Shown here piece after piece: positions 2,231-19,610 of a stretch of DNA of 33,902 bases. Within the stretch, counting starts at the first letter, position 1; each line of letters opens with the position of its first letter. The stretch comes from Puniceibacterium antarcticum (GTDB lineage: Bacteria > Pseudomonadota > Alphaproteobacteria > Rhodobacterales > Rhodobacteraceae). Both the position numbers and the translations under genes were made by a program. The stretch is from positions 1-33,902 of the forward strand of contig NZ_AWWI01000131.1 of the NCBI RefSeq assembly GCF_002760615.1, read 5' to 3'. Under the pieces are notes generated by a model, which saw nothing but the letters and a program-made list of their open reading frames with translations, did not search any database and was not told the DNA's origin.

Positions 2231-2310
2231 TTCGGCGACCCTCTCCTCCTCCCTGGGTCGTTCGATAGCGCGGTGACACCTCTCCTCCTCCCTGGTGTCA
2301 CCGCTCGTAA
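2231..2310 (+). ncRNA. Cuckoo/CcsR-type sRNA, unit 1
   Basis: Hairpin A pairs CGACCC (2236-2241) with GGGTCG (2255-2260). Hairpin B pairs 2270-2280 with 2294-2304 over 11 perfect base pairs. Both loops are TCTCCTCCTCCCT (2242-2254 and 2281-2293). Compared with the later units, B has T-A in place of C-G and A-T in place of G-T, so the stem is conserved rather than the sequence. Processing from the DUF1127 co-transcript is inferred from the Rhodobacter family. Confidence 0.85.
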
Positions 2311-2348
2311 TTTAGGGATCGGTCCAGCGGGACCCAGTCCCACAACAG

Positions 2349-2427
2349 TTCGGGGCCCTCTCCTCCTCCCTGGGTCCTCGATAGCGCGGCGGCACCTCTC
2401 CTCCTCCCTGGTGTCGCCGCACCTAAG
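2349..2427 (+). ncRNA. Cuckoo/CcsR-type sRNA, unit 2
   Basis: Hairpin A pairs 2352-2358 with 2372-2378, including G-U pairs. Hairpin B pairs 2386-2396 with 2410-2420. The loops at 2359-2371 and 2397-2409 carry the same C/U-rich anti-Shine-Dalgarno motif. This unit is intermediate between the diverged first unit and the nearly identical units 3-5. Confidence 0.85.
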
Positions 2428-2465
2428 TTTCGGGATCGGTCCACCGGGACCTATTCCCACCACAG

Positions 2466-2546
2466 TTCGGCGGCCCTCTCCTCCTCCCTGGGTCGGTCGA
2501 AATCGCGGCGGCATCTCTCCTCCTCCCTGGTGTCGCCGCACCTCAG
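2466..2546 (+). ncRNA. Cuckoo/CcsR-type sRNA, unit 3
   Basis: Hairpin A pairs 2471-2476 with 2490-2495. Hairpin B pairs 2505-2515 with 2529-2539. A C-to-T change at 2514 turns one C-G pair of B into U-G and so keeps the stem. The two loops are the standard TCTCCTCCTCCCT. Confidence 0.85.
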
Positions 2547-2585
2547 TTTCGGGATCGGTCCATTCGGGGCCCACTCCCACCACAG

Positions 2586-2666
2586 TTCGGCGGCCCTCTC
2601 CTCCTCCCTGGGTCGGTCGAAATCGCGGCGGCACCTCTCCTCCTCCCTGGTGTCGCCGCACCTAAT
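2586..2666 (+). ncRNA. Cuckoo/CcsR-type sRNA, unit 4
   Basis: This unit is nearly identical to unit 3, shifted by 120 bp. Hairpin B pairs 2625-2635 with 2649-2659 without the C-to-T change of unit 3. The loops are the standard motif. The sequence after hairpin B is slightly shorter than in unit 3. Confidence 0.85.
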
Positions 2667-2703
2667 TCGGGATCGGTCCATTCGGGACCCACTCCCACCA
2701 CAG

Positions 2704-2784
2704 TTCGGCGGCCCTCTCCTCCTCCCTGGGTCGGTCGAAATCGCGGCGGCACCTCTCCTCCTCCCTGGTGTCGCCGCACCTCAG
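2704..2784 (+). ncRNA. Cuckoo/CcsR-type sRNA, unit 5
   Basis: Hairpin A ends in CCC at 2712-2714 and GGG at 2728-2730. Hairpin B pairs 2743-2753 with 2767-2777. Both loops are the standard motif. This is the last complete unit, and its sequence is almost that of units 3 and 4. Confidence 0.85.
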
Positions 2785-2823
2785 TTTCGGGATCGGCCCA
2801 TTCGGGGCCCACTCCCACCACAG

Positions 2824-2857
2824 TTCGGCGGCCCACTCCTCCTCCCGGGTCGCCGTA
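2824..2857 (+). ncRNA. Terminal half unit of the cuckoo array
   Basis: Only hairpin A is present. It is extended to nine base pairs (2826-2834 with 2847-2855) around a variant loop, ACTCCTCCTCCC. The terminator hairpin follows in the place of hairpin B, so a last RNA of about 75 bases made of this hairpin plus the terminator is possible. Confidence 0.7.
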
Positions 2858-2862
2858 AACTC

Positions 2863-2901
2863 AAACGGCGGTGCAAGTTTCCCTCGCACCGCCGTTTTTT
2901 T
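2863..2901 (+). terminator. Rho-independent terminator of the small-RNA array
   Basis: A 12-bp perfect stem (2863-2874 with 2886-2897, core ACGGCGGTGC) encloses an 11-base loop and runs into seven T residues (2895-2901). It is the strongest terminator of the window and closes the DUF1127/cuckoo transcript. The following 2902-3043 has no feature I can support other than the leader of valS. Confidence 0.9.
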
Positions 2902-3043: not shown

Positions 3044-6000
3044 ATGGCGATGGAAAAGACATTCGACGCGGCCGAGGCCGAACAGCGGCTCTACAAGGCC
3101 TGGGAAGACTCCGGTGCCTTTGCCGCCGGCGCTGGCCCTGCGACCAAAAATGCCGACGCAAAACCATACAGCGTCATGATCCCGCCGCCCAACGTGACCG
3201 GGTCTCTGCACATGGGCCACGCGTTCAACAACACGCTGCAGGACATCCTCGTGCGCTGGAAACGGATGCAGGGCTTTGACACCCTCTGGCAGCCGGGCAC
3301 CGATCACGCCGGGATCGCAACGCAAATGGTGACCGAACGCGACATGGCCGCCAATGGCGAACCCTCGCGCCGCGACATGGGCCGTGACGATTTCCTCAAA
3401 CGTGTCTGGCAGCAAAAGATCAATTCGCGCGGCACCATCATCGGTCAGCTCAAACGCCTTGGCGCGTCGCTGGATTGGAGCCGCGAGGCCTTTACCATGT
3501 CCGGCGCCCCCGGTGCCCCTGCCGGGGAAGAGGGCAATTTCCACGATGCCGTCATCAAGGTCTTTGTTGAGATGTACAACAAAGGGCTGATCTATCGCGG
3601 CAAACGCCTCGTCAACTGGGACCCGCATTTCGAAACCGCGATCAGCGACCTTGAGGTCGAGAATATCGATGTCGCGGGCCATATGTGGCATTTCAAATAC
3701 CCGCTCGCTGGCGGCGAAACCTATGAGTACGTGGAAAAGGACGAAGACGGAAACACCCTCTTCACCGAAACGCGCGACTATATCTCGATCGCGACCACCC
3801 GCCCCGAAACCATGCTGGGCGACGGCGCGGTTGCCGTGCATCCGCTCGACGAACGCTATGCGCCGATCATGGGCAAGCTCTGCGAAATCCCCGTCGGCCC
3901 CAAGGAACACCGCCGCCTGATCCCGATCATCACCGATGAATACCCCGACCGCACGTTCGGGTCAGGCGCGGTCAAGATCACCGGCGCGCATGATTTCAAC
4001 GACTATGCGGTCGCCAAACGCGGCAATATCCCCTGCTACCGCCTGATGGACACCCGCGCCCAGATGCGCGCCGACGGTGCCCCCTATGCCGACGAAGCCG
4101 CCAAGGCGCAAAAGATCCTCGACGGGGCCGAGTTCACCGAAGCCGAAGTCGATGCCATCAATCTGGTGCCAGAGGCCTATCGCGGTCTTGACCGGTTTGA
4201 CGCGCGGGACAAGGTCGTCGCTGACATCACCGCCGAAGGTCTGGCCGTGATGACCCAGGGGAACGATCCGCGCCTTGGCAAAAAGGCCGCCAAACCCGTC
4301 GCCCCCGAAGAGGGCGGCGAAGCGCGCGAGGAGGAACTCGTTCCCCTCGTCGAGGCAAAGACCATCATGCAGCCCTTTGGCGACCGCTCAAAGGTTGTCA
4401 TCGAACCCATGCTCACCGACCAATGGTTCGTGGATACCGCGAAAATCGTCGAACCCGCGCTCGACGCCGTGCGCGACGGCACGACTCAGATCATCCCCGA
4501 GCGCGAGAAAAAGGTTTATTTCCACTGGCTCGAAAACATCGAACCCTGGTGCATTTCGCGTCAGCTCTGGTGGGGGCATCAGATCCCGGTCTGGCACGCG
4601 CCGGGCACGGGCGGTGAATGGCGCAGCTTCTGCGCCGCGACCGAGCAAGAGGCCCTCAAACAGATGCACGACTTCTTTGGTGAGGAGGCTGAATTCCTCC
4701 TCGTCGAAGACGCCAACGCGGCCGAGGATATGCTGGCCGACCTGCTGTCTCAGGGCACCGATTACACAGGCGTCGATCAGCGCCGCCGCCCGCAGGCGAT
4801 CCCATTCTTCCGCGATCCCGACGTGCTCGACACCTGGTTCTCCTCCGGTCTCTGGCCCATCGGCACCCTCGGCTGGCCCGACCAGACCGATGCGCTGAAA
4901 AAATACTTCCCGACCAGCGACCTCATCACCGGCACCGACATCCTGTTCTTCTGGGTGGCGCGCATGATGATGATGCAGCTCACCGTCGTCGATCAGGTGC
5001 CGTTCAAAACCGTCTATCTGCACGGCCTCGTGCGCGACGCCAAGGGCAAGAAGATGTCGAAATCCCTCGGCAACGTCGTTGATCCGCTCGACCTCATTGA
5101 CGAATTCGGCGCCGACGCCCTGCGCTTTACCAATGCGGCCATGGCGAGCCTTGGGGGCGCGCTGAAGCTCGACACCCAGCGCATCGCCGGCTACCGCAAC
5201 TTTTCGACCAAGCTGTGGAACGCCTGCCGTTTCGCCGAAATGAACGAGGTGTTCCAGCCATACGGAACCCATACGGAGTCCATATCGATTCCACATGCCT
5301 CCCAGACGGCGAATAAATGGATCATCGGCGAAACCGCCAAGGTCCTGGCCGAGGTTGATGCGGCGCTCGAAAGCTACCGTTTCAACGATGCTGCCACTGC
5401 CCTTTACGCCTTTGTCTGGGGTAAGGTCTGCGACTGGTACGTGGAATTCTCCAAGCCGCTGTTCGACAGTCAGGATGCTGAAATCATTGCGGAAACCCGC
5501 GCCACCATGGCCTGGGTCCTTGATCAGTGTCTGATCCTGCTGCACCCGATCATGCCCTTCATCACAGAAGAACTCTGGGGCACGCTCGCCAAACGCGACA
5601 CCATGCTGATCCACGCCGACTGGCCGACCTACACCGCCGCAGATCTGGTCGATGCGCAGGCAGACGGCGAAATGAACTGGGTCATCTCCCTGATCGACGG
5701 CGTCCGCTCTGCCCGCGCGCAAATGCACGTGCCCGCAGGCCTCAAGGTGCCCATGCTGGTCACCGACCTTGACGTCGCCGGACAGGCCGCGTGGGACCGC
5801 AACGAGGCGCTGATCAAACGCCTTGCGCGCATCGACTCCCTCGACAAAACCGACGCTTTCCCAAAAGGTTGCGTGACGGTCCCCGTCGCGGGCGGCACCT
5901 TTGGCCTGCCCCTTGCCGGCATCATCGATGTCGAGGAAGAAAAGGCCCGGCTGGAAAAAACCCTTGGCAAACTGGCCAAGGAAATCGGCGGTCTCAAGGG

Positions 6001-6136
6001 GCGTCTCAACAACCCCAAATTCGCCGAAAGCGCCCCGGATGAGGTGGTGGAAGAGGCCCGCGACAACCTGAATGCGCGCGAAGAAGAAGAAGCGACACTG
6101 AAAGCCGCCCTCGCCCGCCTCGCCGAACTGGGCTGA
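3044..6136 (+). CDS. valS: Valyl-tRNA synthetase
   Basis: This is the class Ia enzyme that charges tRNA-Val in the cytosol and edits mischarged threonine. The HIGH motif is HMGH at residues 56-59, preceded by PPPNVTGSL. The editing (CP1) domain follows with the [10 protein letters not shown] segment. The KMSKS loop is exactly at residues 670-674. The C-terminal coiled coil, which begins near [11 protein letters not shown], is characteristic of ValRS. The length of 1030 residues is somewhat above that of enterobacterial enzymes. Residues about 737-748 ([10 protein letters not shown] and neighbours) are encoded by a short repeat seen again at 24129-24173, so a repeat seems to have entered this gene in frame. 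A second ATG two codons downstream (3050) could also serve as start. The gene is single, with a structured 3' region behind it. Confidence 0.97.
5254..5287 (+). repeat. 11-bp-periodic dispersed repeat inside valS (copy 1)
   Basis: The copy reads as CCAG, then units CCATACGGAAC and CCATACGGAGT that share their first bases with this lead, ending in CCATATCG. The related copy at 24129-24173 has one more 11-bp unit with the same ends. The two copies are on the same strand. Here the repeat is translated within valS (about residues 737-748). Confidence 0.65.
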
Positions 6137-6161: not shown

Positions 6162-6283
6162 CCTGTCTGTTAGCTCTCACTGCGCAGACAGGAACCGGCT
6201 CTGCCCGCCAGAAACGGTTCGACCCTCCTCGGGTCAGAAAAGCGCCCGCCCTCTTCCTCCCCCCTGGGCGCGGGCGCTTTTCT
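6162..6283 (+). ncRNA. Candidate structured RNA downstream of valS (cuckoo-like orphan)
   Basis: Four hairpins follow each other on the plus strand: CCTGTCTG/CAGACAGG (6162-6169 with 6185-6192), GAACCG/CGGTTC (6192-6197 with 6215-6220), GACCC-TCCTC-GGGTC (6221-6235) and the terminator stem 6236-6283. The last two show CCTCC-type loops in consecutive hairpins, with the GACCC/GGGTC stem also seen in cuckoo hairpin A. This could be a valS 3'-UTR-derived sRNA. It could also be only a complex terminator. No own promoter is obvious. Confidence 0.4.
6236..6283. terminator. Terminator between the convergent valS and trkH
   Basis: A 14-bp stem pairs 6236-6249 with 6270-6283 (AGAAAAGCGCCCGC and its complement). 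The A/T-rich outer ends give a T-rich tract on both strands. It therefore probably stops both valS and trkH transcripts. The 20-base loop is C/T-rich (TCTTCCTCCCCCC). Confidence 0.75.
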
Positions 6284-19438: not shown

Positions 19439-19513
19439 GCGGGCGTAGCTCAGGGGTAGAGCATAACCTTGCCAAGGTTAGGGTCGGGCGTTCGAATCGC
19501 CTCGCCCGCTCCA
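19439..19513 (+). tRNA. tRNA-Gly (anticodon GCC), copy 1
   Basis: The sequence folds as a full cloverleaf. Acceptor GCGGGCG pairs with CGCCCGC. The D-arm is GCTC/GAGC, and the anticodon stem is TAACC/GGTTA around TTGCCAA. The T-arm is GGGCG/CGCCT with the TTCGAAT loop. The discriminator T and a genomically encoded CCA end it at 19513. The anticodon GCC reads GGC and GGU, which are abundant codons in this GC-rich genome. Confidence 0.97.
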
Positions 19514-19535: not shown

Positions 19536-19610
19536 GCGGGCGTAGCTCAGGGGTAGAGCATAACCTTGCCAAGGTTAGGGTCGGGCGTTCGAATCGCCTC
19601 GCCCGCTCCA
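19536..19610 (+). tRNA. tRNA-Gly (anticodon GCC), copy 2
   Basis: This is identical over all 75 bases to copy 1, including the encoded CCA, and lies 22 bases downstream. The pair is probably one transcript. Exact identity points to recent duplication or gene conversion for dosage. Confidence 0.97.

Follow-up and report, generated by a model that had tools for sequence, protein, structure and literature searches.

A CcsR-type small-RNA array behind a DUF1127 gene in Puniceibacterium antarcticum and two conserved promoter sites that may place it under PhaR control

A DUF1127 gene followed by a cuckoo/CcsR array

The DNA analysed here, referred to as the window, is a 33,902-nt stretch of contig NZ_AWWI01000131.1 from the marine bacterium Puniceibacterium antarcticum, whose genome assembly comprises 5.5 Mb in 189 contigs. 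At positions 2228-2901, the window holds eleven CUCCUCCUCCC hairpin loops arranged as five two-loop units of 117-120 nt that are followed by a half unit and a terminator. A preliminary description of the sequence had claimed eleven loops in five units and a half unit, preceded by a DUF1127 gene and followed by a terminator, and all of these are present. The features, with the evidence for each, are as follows.

1808-1824, no strand: operator-like site 1, TTCTGCATAGCAGCATT, whose core CTGCATAGCAG at 1810-1820 agrees with CTGCNNNGCAG, the PhaR site published for R. sphaeroides
1837-1856, no strand: operator-like site 2, ATTGTGCAACCGCAGCATTT, covering a -35-like element and the spacer behind it; weight-matrix score 33.9
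1838-1865, + strand: RpoH-type promoter candidate (TTGTGC, 14-nt spacer, CCCCATCT); conserved upstream block
1908-2126, + strand: gene for a CcaF1-like DUF1127 protein of 72 aa; PF06568, E 1.1e-11, 44.7 bits against a cut-off of 23.3
2228-2309, + strand: two-loop CcsR-like unit 1; RF02791, 54.2 bits, E 3.7e-12
2315-2341, + strand: spacer hairpin 1; folding and pairing
2347-2425, + strand: two-loop unit 2; RF02791, 51.2 bits, E 2.8e-11
2432-2458, + strand: spacer hairpin 2; folding and pairing
2465-2544, + strand: two-loop unit 3; RF02791, 52.3 bits, E 1.3e-11
2551-2578, + strand: spacer hairpin 3; folding and pairing
2585-2664, + strand: two-loop unit 4; RF02791, 57.4 bits, E 4e-13
2669-2696, + strand: spacer hairpin 4; folding and pairing
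2703-2782, + strand: two-loop unit 5; RF02791, 55.3 bits, E 1.7e-12
2789-2816, + strand: spacer hairpin 5, its stem with a two-sided change; folding and pairing
2822-2861, + strand: terminal half unit, one loop with nine inner and four outer pairs; fold, and a weak RF02791 match at 2823-2900 (28.9 bits)
2863-2901, + strand: Rho-independent terminator; fold, with a U tract at the stem end
CTCCTCCTCCC motif starts: 2243, 2282, 2360, 2398, 2478, 2517, 2598, 2637, 2716, 2755, 2836

The CTCCTCCTCCC motif occurs eleven times in the array and is absent from the rest of the window, both strands considered. It first appears 117 nt after the DUF1127 stop codon and then recurs regularly, with the paired loops of the A and B hairpins 38-39 nt apart and 78-82 nt from pair to pair. 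Tandem Repeats Finder reports the strongest array of the window at 2231-2852 (period 120, 5.3 copies, 92% matches). When folded as RNA, positions 2127-2905 give a z score of -9.6 against dinucleotide shuffles, none of 20 shuffles being as good, and the half unit and terminator folded together give -9.1; the terminator is missing from the output of a simple terminator scan. Across 26 named pairs in three hairpins and the five full units, standard pairs occupy 129 of 129 countable cells, with one gapped cell. The 'compensated stems' that had been described for unit 1 hold only in part: one change in its B stem is two-sided (C-G to U-A), but two others are one-sided (G-U to A-U), and the second two-sided change of the array belongs to the spacer hairpin of unit 5.

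The cuckoo RNA family and its CIN1 loci are reportedly due to Reinkensmeier and Giegerich in 2015. The available portions of two papers describe cuckoo RNAs in Alphaproteobacteria as hairpin modules with anti-Shine-Dalgarno (aSD) loops that vary in number and often stand beside a DUF1127 gene (PMC3927594, PMC10253847), and the window locus has CCUCCUCCC in its hairpin loops and a short linked DUF1127 gene. The CcsR1 covariance model (RF02791), a check that the preliminary description had proposed, matches all five units over its whole length (positions 1-83) at 51.2-57.4 bits (E 4e-13 to 2.8e-11). No unit reaches the gathering score of 65.3 bits, and that score is passed by none of 40 related genomes, so the cut-off is narrow. 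Because the loop sequence, the two-loop unit, the linked DUF1127 gene and the terminator match the ccaF1-CcsR1-4 operon and descriptions of CIN1/cuckoo loci, we identify the window locus, on sequence grounds, as a cuckoo/CcsR array in a CIN1-type operon and thus an addition to an sRNA family already known, an identity that had been suggested beforehand and that the RF02791 and PF06568 matches and the loci of relatives bear out.

Set beside the CcsR1-4/ccaF1 operon of R. sphaeroides (RF02791; RSP_6037), which is known here from descriptions, the window likewise has a DUF1127 gene, two-loop CCUCCUCCC RNAs in the 3' UTR, a terminal terminator and an RpoH-type promoter, but it carries five full units and a half unit where R. 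sphaeroides has four, and its RF02791 scores lie below gathering. No structural difference was found between the window and cuckoo/CIN1 loci as these are portrayed in citing papers; the operator-like sites and the spacer hairpin are seen additionally here. The ar14 model (RF02344) also matches the array, at 35.5-52.7 bits and below its cut-off of 58.8. The ar14/NfeR1 RNA of Rhizobiales similarly has hairpins with variable stems and aSD loops, but the available part of PMC7143759 describes an sRNA of three hairpins that has a sigma-70 promoter of its own; it is no DUF1127-linked array.

The possibility of further arrays in the same genome was rejected, as the matches to RF02791 outside the array (E up to 1) are all weak: 22.0 bits at about 6216-6282 of the window, and one each on two further contigs, with 21.7 and 19.6 bits. 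The match within the window (6217-6282, + strand; E 0.011) lies 3' of a gene at 3044-6136 that we take to be valS and forms two hairpins whose loops are rich in C and U, the second resembling a terminator; it may be a degenerate cuckoo RNA or no more than the terminator of valS. Elsewhere in the window, two tRNA-Gly(gcc) genes stand in tandem on the + strand (19439-19513 and 19536-19610) and are identical over the Rfam-aligned stretch.

Loop number, tandem duplication and the spacer hairpin among relatives

Loci of relatives were fetched with an alignment of 12 cuckoo-linked DUF1127 proteins, and the 80 named loci considered below are the best 80 of 386 confirmed; the three among these nearest to the window are Puniceibacterium. 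At least three loops lie downstream of the DUF1127 gene in 77 of the best 80 of 386, and the remaining three are L090 (two loops, 184 nt of contig left), L095 (none, 159 nt) and L129 (none in 1247 nt). In the 75 loci from the best 80 of 386 that have at least 1500 nt downstream, the number of loops ranges from 3 to 17, the commonest number being 6 (21 loci), with exactly 11 in four loci and more than 11 in 12; this distribution counts loops, whose numbers vary between two counts through different motif and gap rules. Counted instead as loop pairs 34-46 nt apart, units number 0 to 7 across 81 loci (the window and the best 80 of 386), with 5 in the window. The window array is of ordinary size within its family. 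An earlier suggestion that its copy number is larger is correct beside R. sphaeroides, for which four RNAs are reported, but not beside these 75 loci, and copy-number expansion was dropped as the main story, eleven loops being within the usual range of relatives. One locus, L107, comes from a record titled Enemella evansiae TN21-6, taxonomically an actinomycete, and is a typical cuckoo operon; the record title looks wrong.

Pairwise comparison of the units confirmed the reported near-identity of units 3-5 and divergence of unit 1. Units 3-5 differ from one another at 2-5 of 120 positions (98.3% identity for units 3 and 5, 95.8% for units 3 and 4 and for units 4 and 5), unit 2 is 90.0-90.8% identical to these three, and unit 1 differs from the others at 18-21 positions (82.5-84.9%). 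In a congener (locus L037, G001:C1:1606500-1609800), a 218-bp double unit is followed by an identical copy, and a third starts with 1 difference in 100. The 96-98% identity of units 3-5 and this exact repeat indicate that the array duplicates in tandem, as had been proposed, and in 12 arrays the nearest neighbour of 41 of 60 units lies within its own array, compared with a mean of 4.3 and a maximum of 19 for shuffled labels. Mean identity within an array, relative to that with the nearest other array, is higher in five of the 12 arrays, equal in two and lower in five, the window array being among the last (0.89 within, 0.91 to P. confluentis). With these mixed outcomes, duplication has clearly been recent in some places, but wholesale homogenisation is not evident. 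For selection on loop dose, which had also been put forward, the data show compatibility and no more.

A third hairpin, with a short GC stem of variable sequence, follows every B hairpin and precedes the A hairpin of the following unit. RF02791 matches stop short of it, and both this spacer hairpin and the operator-like sites at 1808-1856 are features beyond those in the preliminary description. For 160 spacers of 15-59 nt from 81 loci (the best 80 of 386 and the window), the mean z score against mononucleotide shuffles is -3.50 and 99% lie below -1.5, whereas 320 equal-length control stretches from the same loci have a mean of -0.06 and 9% below -1.5. In 13 spacers picked out of 47 (12 with a 5-4-5 hairpin), all 65 of 65 cells are paired and one pair varies among U-A, G-C, A-U and G-U; because these spacers were chosen, their covariation is only illustrative, and the z scores of the 160 spacers constitute the unselected test. 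We infer that the spacer hairpin is a processing or protecting element between the sRNAs.

Two inverted promoter sites are conserved through the family

Upstream of the DUF1127 gene, the stretch at 1838-1865 is presumably an RpoH-type promoter, as read by the sigma-32 consensus, with the RpoH-like -10 element CCCCATCT at 1858-1865; a sigma-70 scan picked another candidate at 1768-1796. Aligned upstream regions from 74 named loci (from the best 80 of 386) and the window contain the block ATGCANTTGCTGCATAGCAGCATTG, about ten variable bases and the block ATTGTGCANNYGCAGCATTT, the latter running on into CCCCATCT in the window. Since site 2 served as the anchor of this alignment, its TGC and GCAGCA letters are constant by construction, while the flanking letters and all of site 1 are unanchored.

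Site 2 (TGCN4GCAGCA) is found within 260 nt upstream in 75 of the 80 named loci (best 80 of 386) and in 0.07% of shuffled upstream regions, and site 1 (CTGCN3GCAG) in 59 of the same best 80 of 386 and in 0.43% of shuffled regions. In a leave-one-out weight matrix, site 2 scores above the best of 2000 mononucleotide shuffles in all of the best 80 of 386 loci (lowest score 11.7 versus 10.7), and the window reaches 33.9 versus 10.7 for the best of 2000 shuffled upstream regions. A matrix for site 1, which is not leave-one-out, gives at least 20 in 78 of the best 80 of 386 (best shuffle 9.2), with weak sites at L113 (1.6) and L166 (8.7). As a composite, the two sites are present in 54 of 80 upstream regions of 200 nt (best 80 of 386) and once in the 924 kb that these loci otherwise comprise, both strands counted. 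The composite pattern also turns up once per genome in 13 of 40 relatives, each time no more than about 1 kb from CcsR1 matches, and, irrespective of neighbourhood, in 60 of 100 family genomes, mostly once and with a control of 0 (three matches have a shorter gap). Collectively, the two inverted promoter sites are conserved through this bacterial family.

Site 2 alone was rejected as a genome-wide marker, there being three other exact matches, none with a DUF1127 or phasin gene directly downstream. Across both strands of the genome, CTGCN3GCAGCA is matched 63 times, with seven palindromic places counted twice and some matches within genes, compared with 6 for the reversed control. Two further loci, L055 (G001:C7) and L056 (G002:C12), consist of a two-loop cuckoo RNA with no DUF1127 gene seen alongside; a site 1-like core and site 2 (26.3) stand about 50-80 nt ahead of their first loop.

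A putative PhaR link and its alternatives

In the available part of PMC12542648, the R. sphaeroides PhaR DNA site is given as 5'-CTGCNNNGCAG-3', and PhaR is described as a repressor of phasin genes until PHB draws it to granules. This published site is present in the promoter region of the window as CTGCATAGCAG (1810-1820), the genome encodes PhaR (PF07879, E 1.2e-26), and its phaP gene carries TGCTGCAGCGCAGCATT, with half-sites the same as those of site 1. The commonest form of site 1 is TGCTGC-ATA-GCAGCATT (27 of 79 trained, from the best 80 of 386), and the genome's own phasin gene has TGCTGC-AGC-GCAGCATT. Five phasin promoters of relatives reach best scores of 15.8, 10.4, 6.9, 1.9 and -0.4 with the site 1 matrix, meaning that the centre bases differ. 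PhaR-controlled phaP promoters thus share inverted TGC/GCA sites with the window, but they precede a granule protein gene and the window sites precede a DUF1127-sRNA operon; at phaP1 and phaP2 of S. meliloti, two sites are reported to flank the -35 element (PMC12542648, in the part available). By analogy, MmgR (ar8) of Sinorhizobium meliloti may serve as a precedent in kind for a PhaR-repressed aSD-loop sRNA, since the accessible sections of two papers describe its gene as repressed by AniA (PhaR) and as having a putative PhaR site (PMC7143759, PMC12542648). MmgR differs in being a single 77-nt sRNA with three stem loops that is NtrC-induced.

The distribution of PhaR across the family bears on this link. 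Among 296 family genomes, approximately one per genus, PhaR (PF07879) is matched in 290, and CcsR1 matches are present in three of the six genomes without detectable PhaR. A PHB synthase match was found in none of these six and in all four other genomes checked. In the three PhaR-less genomes with CcsR-type loops, a promoter relic is readable in which half-sites are substituted and both sites are degraded, with site 2 scores of -11.0, -13.2 and -14.4 and site 1 scores of -1.5, 9.8 and 12.0. Within the stretch read, G278 has three loops only and no DUF1127 gene. In 16 PhaR-positive genomes with CcsR1 matches (G000-G004, G006, G009-G011, G013-G017, G020 and G022, the best DUF1127 gene of each being counted), site 2 scores at least 22 in 14, 10.2 in G013 and at most 0.9 in G011. 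Site 2 is counted as present in 15 of 16 PhaR-positive versus none of three PhaR-less genomes, a difference with a probability of 4/969 that ignores kinship, involves few cases and uses a line drawn after the scores were known, with G013 included although its 10.2 is just below the best shuffle. G011 has PhaR and PHB synthase matches but is without site 2 at three DUF1127 genes (0.9, -8.8 and -14.3); its site 1 scores are 30.0 and 28.4 at the two DUF1127 genes scored. At locus L045 of this genome (G011:C6:19500-24000), three DUF1127 genes are packed into about 2 kb, and loops both separate and follow them.

Taken as a whole, the locus is probably best explained as a CIN1-type operon with a processed CcsR array and a PhaR-gated RpoH-type promoter, and we infer that PhaR gates this anti-Shine-Dalgarno RNA array through the putative sites. 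A single RpoH-type transcript would carry the DUF1127 gene and, in its 3' UTR, five CcsR/cuckoo sRNAs and the half unit, and RNase E would cut it between hairpins to yield roughly 80-nt two-loop RNAs, five and a half unit per transcript, whose CUCCUCCUCCC loops could pair with purine-rich Shine-Dalgarno regions. PhaR would bind site 1 above and site 2 over the -35-like element and repress the promoter, PHB granules would pull PhaR off, and the array would be released when carbon is stored and RpoH is active. The length of the array would set the number of sRNAs per transcription event and could be altered by tandem duplication. In R. sphaeroides, the available parts of the literature report an RpoHI/RpoHII promoter for the operon (PMC10253847), co-transcription and processing of the CcsRs (PMC10253847, PMC8625941, PMC7866481), their release from one transcript by RNase E cleavage (PMC7866481), PNPase degradation, Hfq dependence and stress induction (PMC10253847, PMC8625941, PMC7866481, PMC8307010), and flhR as a named mRNA target (PMC8307010). 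The DUF1127 protein might additionally influence sRNA maturation. From the same partial sources, CcaF1 promotes CcsR maturation (PMC10253847), increased amounts of CcaF1 interfere with it (PMC8307010), and DUF1127 proteins, CcaF1 included, can replace a protein-contact function in Agrobacterium (PMC12501420); we counted the disagreement between the first two papers, along with the protein contacts in the third, against this explanation of the locus.

Some of this evidence would sit as well with an ordinary CcsR array under RpoH control only, in which the conserved sites are extended promoter elements or sites of another factor. Site 2 coincides with the -35-like element and the spacer that follows, and the R. 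sphaeroides operon is reported as RpoHI/RpoHII-driven. A gap of 4 nt separates the half-sites of site 2, versus 3 in the published PhaR consensus, so that the promoter or another factor could account for it. The case of G011, with PhaR yet without site 2, points the same way, and another regulator lost along with the PHB genes would yield a pattern identical to that in the PhaR-less genomes. Furthermore, the lower CcsR1 levels in stationary-phase R. sphaeroides (PMC8307010, in the part available) do not fit the PhaR model in a simple way if PHB rises there. Nonetheless, site 1 is located apart from the promoter candidate, agrees with the published PhaR consensus and has half-sites in common with phaP, and three PhaR-less genomes keep loops while both sites have degraded, and we regard control by RpoH only as unlikely.

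The loops themselves could act as a passive sponge that titrates Shine-Dalgarno regions, ribosomes or an RNA-binding protein, with selection on total loop dose. The near-invariance of the window loops, the range of 3 to 17 loops in relatives (best 80 of 386) and the emergence of identical repeats agree with such a role, but regular two-loop units with a conserved hairpin between them fit the release of defined sRNAs, R. sphaeroides CcsRs have flhR as a named target (PMC8307010) and derive from one RNase E-cleaved transcript (PMC7866481), both as given in partial texts, and some relatives among the best 80 of 386 have just 3 loops. This makes a sponge quite improbable in our estimation. That the array is a functionless C/U-rich minisatellite folding by chance would account for a tandem repeat with recent duplications, but can scarcely be credited given at least three loops behind the DUF1127 gene in 77 named loci (of the best 80 of 386), the preserved pairing and the covariance-model matches.

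Returning to a PhaR-gated CcsR operon, we lean, on balance, towards extending this model to the Rhodobacterales as a whole. The DUF1127-cuckoo operon would be a PHB-gated riboregulator in which PhaR shuts an RpoH-type promoter via two operators and granule sequestration frees a burst of sRNAs and an RNA-binding maturation factor, tying carbon storage to translational control and stress defence. In other words, judging by its control region, a widely conserved stress-sRNA operon may be a readout of the cell's carbon store. Such a PHB readout, if true, could explain the action of CcsRs on C1 metabolism and pyruvate dehydrogenase. A PhaR-CcsR link, if true, would join two studied circuits and looks new: in the open-licence literature, surveyed in part, we found no paper that treats PhaR or PHB jointly with CcsR, CcaF1, DUF1127 or cuckoo, and PMC9230146, in its available portion, has both DUF1127 and PHB but in separate places. 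Elsewhere in the family, a full TGCTGCN3GCAGCA palindrome (G000:C44:59385-59399) lies upstream of a gene that resembles, in our reading, an HpcH/HpaI-type lyase and is a possible further PhaR target.
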